Below are positions 24,724 to 25,568 of a stretch of 64,000 bases of DNA, piece by piece; the first letter of the stretch is position 1; the number at the start of each line of letters is the position of its first letter. The stretch lies in the NCBI GenBank assembly GCA_028710885.1, contig JAQTTG010000004.1, forward strand, positions 186,001 through 250,000. The letters are read 5' to 3'. Made by a program: the position numbers and the translations under genes. Source of the stretch: Sulfuricurvum sp. (lineage in GTDB: Bacteria; Campylobacterota; Campylobacteria; Campylobacterales; Sulfurimonadaceae). The notes beneath the pieces are model-generated. The model saw nothing but the letters and a program-made list of their open reading frames with translations, was not told the DNA's origin and made no database searches.

Positions 24724-24850
24724 GCAGTTCCTTTTGTTGGGTCATGCGCCCATAAATTAATGGTGGAATTGTACCAAATGGTGGTTTAGGGGAAGGTAAA
24801 GTTTCCATAGACTTCTACCTCTAACAGAGAAAAGCATAAAATTTTGCTGA

Positions 24851-25243
24851 TTAATGGCAGGCAGCTGCTGCTCCATCAGAAATAGCCCTTTCATAAGTTT
24901 CTTCACTAAAACCTGGGTTATTTGTCATTAACTCGTTTCGAGCTTTTTCATATCGTTCTCTAGTCACTACTTCTTTTCGGTGACAGTTTTCAACTAAGGC
25001 ATCACCAACATCCCAATTACTCGCTAACAATTTTTTTGAACGATCAAGCCAGTCTTGAACCTCAGATTGAGACACTGTGTTAAAAACCTCAAAAGGGTCA
25101 ATTTGATTATTTCTATTAATATCATTGTAATAATAAATCTGAAATACTCCATCCGCTAAATTCACAGACAATGCTCTATCAATTTTTTTCTGTCTTTGTT
25201 GTTCACTATATTCAATATCAGTCATTAAATCGTTCCTTTTCAA
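24851..25243 (-). CDS. hypothetical protein
   Basis: 130-aa ORF; no recognised family. True start may be the internal Met7. Confidence 0.5.
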   Translation of the reverse strand: MKRNDLMTDIEYSEQQRQKKIDRALSVNLADGVFQIYYYNDINRNNQIDPFEVFNTVSQSEVQDWLDRSKKLLASNWDVGDALVENCHRKEVVTRERYEKARNELMTNNPGFSEETYERAISDGAAAACH

Positions 25244-25332
25244 ATATCATATTTTTCAACTATTATGATTATACACTCTTGAGAAAAAATCTACCAATTT
25301 TTGACCTATTTTCATTCATCCAATAGATTTCG

Positions 25333-25341
25333 TGTTATAAT
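25333..25341 (+). promoter_or_regulatory. extended -10 promoter (TGTTATAAT)
   Basis: TGnTATAAT in AT-rich intergenic DNA upstream of the candidate sRNA. Confidence 0.6.
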
Positions 25342-25347
25342 TTCTCC

Positions 25348-25425
25348 GCTAACACACTTATCTATACGTTCAATGGAGCGGCACTTTGAGGTCGAGGGAG
25401 TAATTACCCCTCGGCCTTTTTTTTT
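25348..25425 (+). ncRNA. candidate small RNA (about 78 nt) ending in an intrinsic terminator
   Basis: Extended -10 at 25333-25341, 9-bp hairpin 25390-25398/25408-25416 followed by T9; its 5' half is complementary to 25429-25478. Confidence 0.55.
25390..25425 (+). terminator. intrinsic terminator
   Basis: GGTCGAGGG-AGTAATTAC-CCCTCGGCC followed by nine T. Confidence 0.85.
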
Positions 25426-25458
25426 GCCCTCCAAAGAATGTATAGATAGGGGGTCTTT

Positions 25459-25518
25459 ATGGATAAGATAGTGTTAGCGCTCTTTCTTATGTGCCTTTTT
25501 GCACCTATGCTCAATTGA
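25459..25518 (+). CDS. candidate 19-aa hydrophobic peptide MDKIVLALFLMCLFAPMLN
   Basis: ATG preceded by G-rich SD-like AGGGGG; peptide has one short hydrophobic helix; leader is complementary to the upstream candidate sRNA. Below ORF-track length cutoff. Confidence 0.4.
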   Translation: MDKIVLALFLMCLFAPMLN

Positions 25519-25523
25519 GTATA

Positions 25524-25546
25524 GCCAAGGGGTTTGTCCCCTTGGC
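25524..25546. repeat. perfect 9-bp inverted repeat GCCAAGGGG-TTTGT-CCCCTTGGC
   Basis: Read directly; located between the 19-aa ORF and the glycosylase gene, no U-tract. Confidence 0.85.
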
Positions 25547-25568
25547 CCCCAATTAAGGAAGCTATATT

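Follow-up and report, generated by a model that had tools for sequence, protein, structure and literature searches.

A hallmark ascribed to type I toxin–antitoxin loci is an untranslatable primary toxin transcript closed by an anti-Shine–Dalgarno (anti-SD) sequence, sometimes over a long distance (PMC6733600), and by definition their antitoxin is an antisense RNA made from the opposite strand under its own promoter (PMC12390103). In type III modules (ToxIN and relatives), a single promoter, an RNA antitoxin, a Rho-independent terminator, and the toxin open reading frame (ORF) follow each other on one strand (PMC5086642). Here we describe an element of ∼220 bases in Sulfuricurvum sp. that shares features with both. 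It runs from a −10 promoter element at 25333 to a C-run at 25550 of the window, by which we mean the whole stretch of 64,000 nucleotides (nt) that was analyzed (contig JAQTTG010000004.1, positions 186,001 to 250,000). We consider it probable, on comparative sequence evidence, that the element is a type I-like toxin–antitoxin module on one strand with type III gene order, in which a base-pairing RNA accompanies a doubly locked toxin mRNA. All 102 copies that we collected share one layout: promoter, two single-stranded arms, intrinsic terminator, complementary arms, Shine–Dalgarno (SD) sequence, hydrophobic ORF of 19 codons, 3′ hairpin, and an SD-complementary tail. The parts in the window are as follows.

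25333–25341, plus strand: extended −10 promoter element TGTTATAAT, read from the sequence; sole promoter of the module
25347–25425, plus strand: predicted ∼79-nt terminated RNA, candidate antitoxin, with the terminator as its 3′ end (fold and short-RNA-only remnants)
25347–25355, plus strand: arm I5, CGCTAACAC, pairing with ORF codons 5–7 (pairing counts and covariation)
25359–25371, plus strand: arm II5, TATCTATACGTTC, pairing with the leader immediately 5′ of the SD (pairing counts and covariation)
25375–25383, plus strand: arm III5, GGAGCGGCA, conserved, pairing with TGCCCTCC directly 3′ of the terminator (covariation and fold)
25390–25416 (hairpin) and 25417–25425 (run of nine T, T9), plus strand: intrinsic terminator; the stem covaries and the T-run is conserved
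25436–25448, plus strand: arm II3, GAATGTATAGATA, pairing with arm II5 with one G-U (pairing counts and covariation)
25449–25453, plus strand: SD sequence GGGGG, read from the sequence; SD class matches tail class among copies
25459 (ATG)–25518, plus strand: 19-codon ORF MDKIVLALFLMCLFAPMLN, hydrophobic and toxin-like (ratio of nonsynonymous to synonymous substitution rates, dN/dS, of 0.26 over codons 8–19)
25471–25479, plus strand: arm I3, GTGTTAGCG, within the ORF (pairing counts and covariation)
25525–25545, plus strand: 3′ hairpin CCAAGGGG-TTTGT-CCCCTTGG, which folds
25546–25550, plus strand: 3′ anti-SD tail CCCCC (covariation with the SD, and fold)

Several of these parts had been picked out by an earlier reading of the letters and ORFs alone (the sequence-only reading): the extended −10, the terminator hairpin with its T9 (25390–25425), the ATG at 25459, and the pairings of GCTAACAC (25348–25355) with GTGTTAGC (25471–25478) and of GGAG (25375–25378) with CTCC (25429–25432) are all present. 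Its long arm pairing, TATCTATACGTTC with GAATGTATAGATA, also stands, with the 5′ arm at 25359–25371 and not one base earlier, at 25358–25370. Overlooked were the extent of the element to 25550, the complementarity of the CCCCC tail to the GGGGG of the SD, and the many copies elsewhere.

Likeness to described systems

The aapA/IsoA modules of Helicobacter pylori (type I) resemble the element in having several copies per genome, a host that also belongs to the former Epsilonproteobacteria, and a hydrophobic peptide. Full-length aapA mRNA is inert, its 3′ anti-SD closed on the SD, and is activated by 3′ trimming (PMC6733600); the aapA3 arrangement (PMC6733600) matches the SD–tail lock that we describe below. 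IsoA, however, is a cis-encoded antisense RNA and AapA1 has 30 amino acids (aa) (PMC8309996), whereas the RNA of the element is a promoter-proximal, terminated leader of the toxin mRNA, made from the same and not the opposite strand, and its peptide has 19 aa. The ibs/Sib family of Escherichia coli (type I) has five copies in MG1655, a 19-aa hydrophobic toxin (IbsC), and two recognition domains in Sib (PMC4147584), which resemble arms I and II; sibC and ibsC lie on opposite strands, unlike the two halves of the element. The mRNA of hok is described, as cited in PMC6733600, as stably folded and in need of 3′-end processing for activation, and Sok is an antisense RNA that overlaps hok (PMC8309996), unlike the RNA of the element. 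Activation of a stably folded mRNA by 3′-end processing is what we propose for the element as well. Hok is longer than its peptide and dissimilar in sequence.

Type III modules share their gene order with the element, in which it is conserved across the 102 copies. Their toxins are endoribonucleases to which RNA repeats bind directly, whereas the element has no repeat array, a 19-aa hydrophobic peptide, and an RNA that would base pair with the peptide's own mRNA. Because its RNA lies upstream on the same strand and shares the toxin's promoter, outside the type I definition, while the pairing and the locks are type I-like and the order is that of type III, we file the element as a variant: type I-like in action, type III-like in layout. 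A literature search, with most subscription papers outside its reach, found no type I antitoxin encoded upstream of its toxin on the same strand, and in the literature searched, such a same-strand guard RNA is not described for type I toxins. Searches for type I systems inspect the strand opposite the toxin and would therefore miss a same-strand module by design.

Arm pairing, tail lock, and peptide

The arms are hypervariable, more so than any other part of the element, and they change together. In a gapless comparison of 33 aligned copies, which is free of model-fitting bias for helix II and in which the register of helix I was picked per sequence among nine offsets, helix I had 293 Watson-Crick and 2 G-U pairs among 297 (99.3% paired, against 69.5% with shuffled partners) despite 31 different 5′ arms, and helix II was 94.9% paired (64.9% with shuffled partners). 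An alignment of 98 sequences gave a covariation score of 0.624, compared with 0.216 for shuffled columns and 0.07–0.10 for slid partners; 38 of the 39 modeled pairs showed double-sided change and 97% of cells were paired, a count that leans toward the structure since the alignment was fitted to the model. The terminator stem (helix 4) covaries too. Compensatory change in the arms, which the sequence-only reading had proposed as a test along with conservation of the peptide frame, is thus massive among homologous copies, and the frame is kept. Covariation strongly backs pairing as such, which may take place within one molecule or between two.

G-U pairs outnumbered A-C mismatches by 59 to 4 in the arms of the 33 copies, and the plus-strand RNA is therefore the strand that pairs. 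This bears on the idea that the element is a palindromic mobile DNA repeat (similar to a miniature inverted-repeat transposable element) whose hairpin acts as DNA. Such a repeat would explain why one genome can hold several copies in different places and why the site is empty in relatives, but the arms are the most variable and not the most conserved part, G-U is favored over A-C, and the reading frame, SD–tail pairing, promoter, and T9 are all conserved; we regard this explanation as very improbable.

Folding agrees with the counts. The whole transcript (25347–25550, 204 nt) has a predicted energy of −99 kcal/mol (z = −9.7 relative to shuffled sequence). Pairing of each short RNA with its cognate mRNA averaged −25.9 kcal/mol versus −11.8 with other copies of the same genome, and only one of 150 cross-pairs was stronger than the cognate one. 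We also observed a small conserved hairpin within the ORF (GTGCNTTTTTGCAC type; 25491–25503 in the window) and another around the stop codon. An Rfam search of the window returned tRNA only, with no RNA family on the element.

A third pairing joins the two ends of the toxin message. Copies with the SD GGGGG carry the tail CCCCC in 53 of 60 cases; GGGAG goes with CTCCC in 23 of 24 (and with CCCCC in none), GGGGA with TCCCC in six of seven, and GGAGG with CCTCC in three of four. Swapping whole tails between copies gave a weaker separation than grouping by SD class, because most copies belong to the GGGGG/CCCCC class. When the leader is left out of the fold, tail and SD close on each other; when the tail is left out, this closure is lost and a weaker upstream CCCUC pairing replaces it. 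Prediction and covariation thus point to a primary mRNA kept inert by sequestration of its SD, as in type I loci.

The peptide follows the pattern M(D/N/E)K, a hydrophobic stretch, and then L-x-C-x-F-A-P, with L10, C12, and A15 invariant in 87 copies. At 19 aa and with a mean Kyte-Doolittle value of 3.1 over residues 4–15, it is short and hydrophobic like type I toxins. Codons 8–19 have a dN/dS of 0.26 in frame and of 0.54 and 6.35 in the shifted frames, and on this comparison the peptide is under purifying selection. We think it is probably toxic and membrane-seeking. Alignment of the window peptide with IbsC scored no better than shuffles; as a separate observation, the peptides of two distant copies (L088 and L099) aligned with E. 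coli IbsC better than composition-shuffled controls.

A benign small membrane protein, or a leader peptide under attenuation control, would account for the same frame in the absence of any toxin. A Pfam and NCBIfam scan, which had a minimum length above 19 aa and covered four distant relatives of 20–22 aa, gave nothing significant. However, the copies sit at many different sites (that in the window as an insertion), so there is no single downstream gene to be led, and a harmful product would fit better with an SD under two or three independent locks and with decay that starts with the ORF. We therefore consider a benign peptide improbable.

A single transcription unit and its proposed control

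Of the 102 copies, 98 have a −10-like hexamer upstream (TATAAT in 77), and the terminator ends in exactly nine T in 99. The distance from the T-run to the ATG is 29–34 nt in 98 copies. We asked whether the mRNA might have a promoter of its own and dismissed the idea: the variable arm and the SD fill the stretch from T9 to ATG, which leaves no consistent room for a conserved promoter and contains no consistent −10, and a promoter scan found none there. The mRNA must therefore arise by read-through. Of the two options raised by the sequence-only reading, an antitoxin RNA on the same strand as a toxin ORF and a leader controlled by read-through, the comparison favors both together, given a single promoter and a terminator that lies between the RNA and the ORF and is extremely conserved. 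A constant nine-T run is in itself unusual for a slippage-prone tract (25417–25425 in the window), and only two of the 203 A- or T-runs of at least six in the window reach nine.

We propose that the single promoter would mostly yield the short RNA ending at the T9 terminator, with occasional read-through producing the mRNA of the 19-aa membrane-type peptide. Three pairings would silence this mRNA. The 5′ arms would close over the regions flanking the SD and start codon; in the read-through RNA they would do so in cis, and after removal of the leader from the mRNA the free short RNA could do so in trans. The SD itself would be covered by the 3′ tail. Loss of the leader, trimming of the tail, and loss of the short RNA would then release toxin synthesis. 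In this scheme we infer that the peptide is toxic, that an unstable short RNA exists as a molecule of its own and acts in trans, that the ratio of RNA to mRNA is set by termination, and that processing activates the mRNA.

Decaying copies speak to the order in which the parts are lost. Sixteen loci retain the promoter, the arms of the short RNA, and the terminator, with the ORF lost or interrupted, whereas 41 genomes, searched with the ORF half, yielded no intact copy of it that lacked the RNA half, the exceptions being truncated remnants. The sequences thus indicate that the toxin half is lost first. The window's own genome holds such a remnant (L002; G000:C13:517245–517367, minus strand), a second promoter–arms–terminator unit with no ORF. 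The gene that adjoins it is presumably an acetyl-CoA synthetase gene (acs), identified by eye, and related genomes carry full copies (L007 and L025) at this gene. Two loci (L161 and L165) lost the ORF through a deletion that lies between the G-run of the SD and the 3′ hairpin; in another (L166), a foreign insert of roughly 120 base pairs (bp) splits arm II3 and leaves the short-RNA half intact.

Control purely in cis is the alternative closest to this proposal: the leader would fold back on its own mRNA, the terminated RNA would be only an aborted transcript, inactive in trans, and the peptide might still be toxic. Both RNAs do come from one promoter, the full-length RNA folds as one hairpin containing both arms, and copies avoid each other's arms no more within than between genomes. 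But a pure leader hairpin has no need of a terminator with exactly nine T in 97% of copies; promoter, arms, and terminator persist in remnants after ORF loss (recent decay could give the same picture); and the short RNA is predicted to have a strong terminator and a free 5′ arm, its first ∼20 nt being unpaired. We judge cis-only control unlikely.

Several points weigh against a type I-like module with an RNA acting in trans. Since each read-through mRNA brings a 5′ arm of its own, action in trans would require the processing step that we postulate. A test for selection that keeps arms distinct within a genome detected none, within-genome arm divergence being no greater than between-genome divergence; as cross-pairing between genomes equals that within them, we do not claim selection for separate specificities. 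RNA structure inside the ORF may contribute in part to the low dN/dS of 0.26 (0.54 in frame +1), and the count of 16 short-RNA-only remnants was made by eye on draft genomes. At the level of sequence comparison, we regard as established that the layout is shared, that three pairings covary, that the arms pair as plus-strand RNA, that the peptide is under selection, that the promoter and T9 are conserved, that the toxin half is lost first, and that the site is empty in relatives.

It is possible, and we suggest it tentatively, that the antitoxin consists solely of the 5′ leader of the toxin mRNA, released by premature termination and directed against its own message, with termination, tuned by a T9 under strong selection, choosing between guard RNA and toxin message. 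With termination as the switch, the module could respond to altered termination or halted transcription, for example, during phage takeover. If true, a self-targeting terminated-leader system would form a new class between types I and III. The module links a type I mechanism to type III gene order and makes it testable whether terminator read-through alone sets the antitoxin-to-toxin ratio, and the family offers more than 100 natural pairs of matching RNA arms as a data set for RNA specificity.

Genomic site and distribution

In most Sulfuricurvum relatives, purH adjoins a glycosylase gene across a short spacer, the empty site (blastn). Their alignment with the window ends at 24800 and restarts at ∼25568, which implies an insertion of ∼767 bp in the window genome.

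24801–25567, strand not applicable: inserted segment carrying the element and an orphan ORF, absent from most relatives (blastn of relatives)

The orphan ORF (24851–25243, minus strand, 130 aa) had no family match and no consistent partner among relatives. IMG/VR viral contigs held no exact-pattern match to the element, and plasmid and phage records no blastn match; we therefore draw no link to phages or plasmids.

The 102 copies are distinct and apparently intact and come from 56 genomes of Sulfuricurvum, Sulfurimonas, and relatives, which are environmental bacteria. Homologs turned up by DNA search in 20 of 60 related genomes, frequently with several in one genome, and a pattern scan that took a single genome from each GTDB species matched Campylobacterota records only (Sulfuricurvum, Sulfurimonas, and further Campylobacterales). 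With a covariance model, matches appeared in 53 of 201 genomes of the family, spanning seven of 18 genera with a maximum of seven per genome, and also in other families of the same order, where the sequence is quite different and the order of parts identical. Most minus-strand matches of the model were dismissed as echoes of the palindrome, and one weak order-level match (L220), which has no ORF, was left out of the count. At one locus (L085; G095:C26), two full copies with different arms lie ∼170 bp apart. A variant copy (L229; G091:C25) has a 17-nt arm I and a 5′ arm, ACTCCTTTCTT, that pairs directly with the SD, AAGAAAGGAGT; it shows no evident 3′ tail lock.
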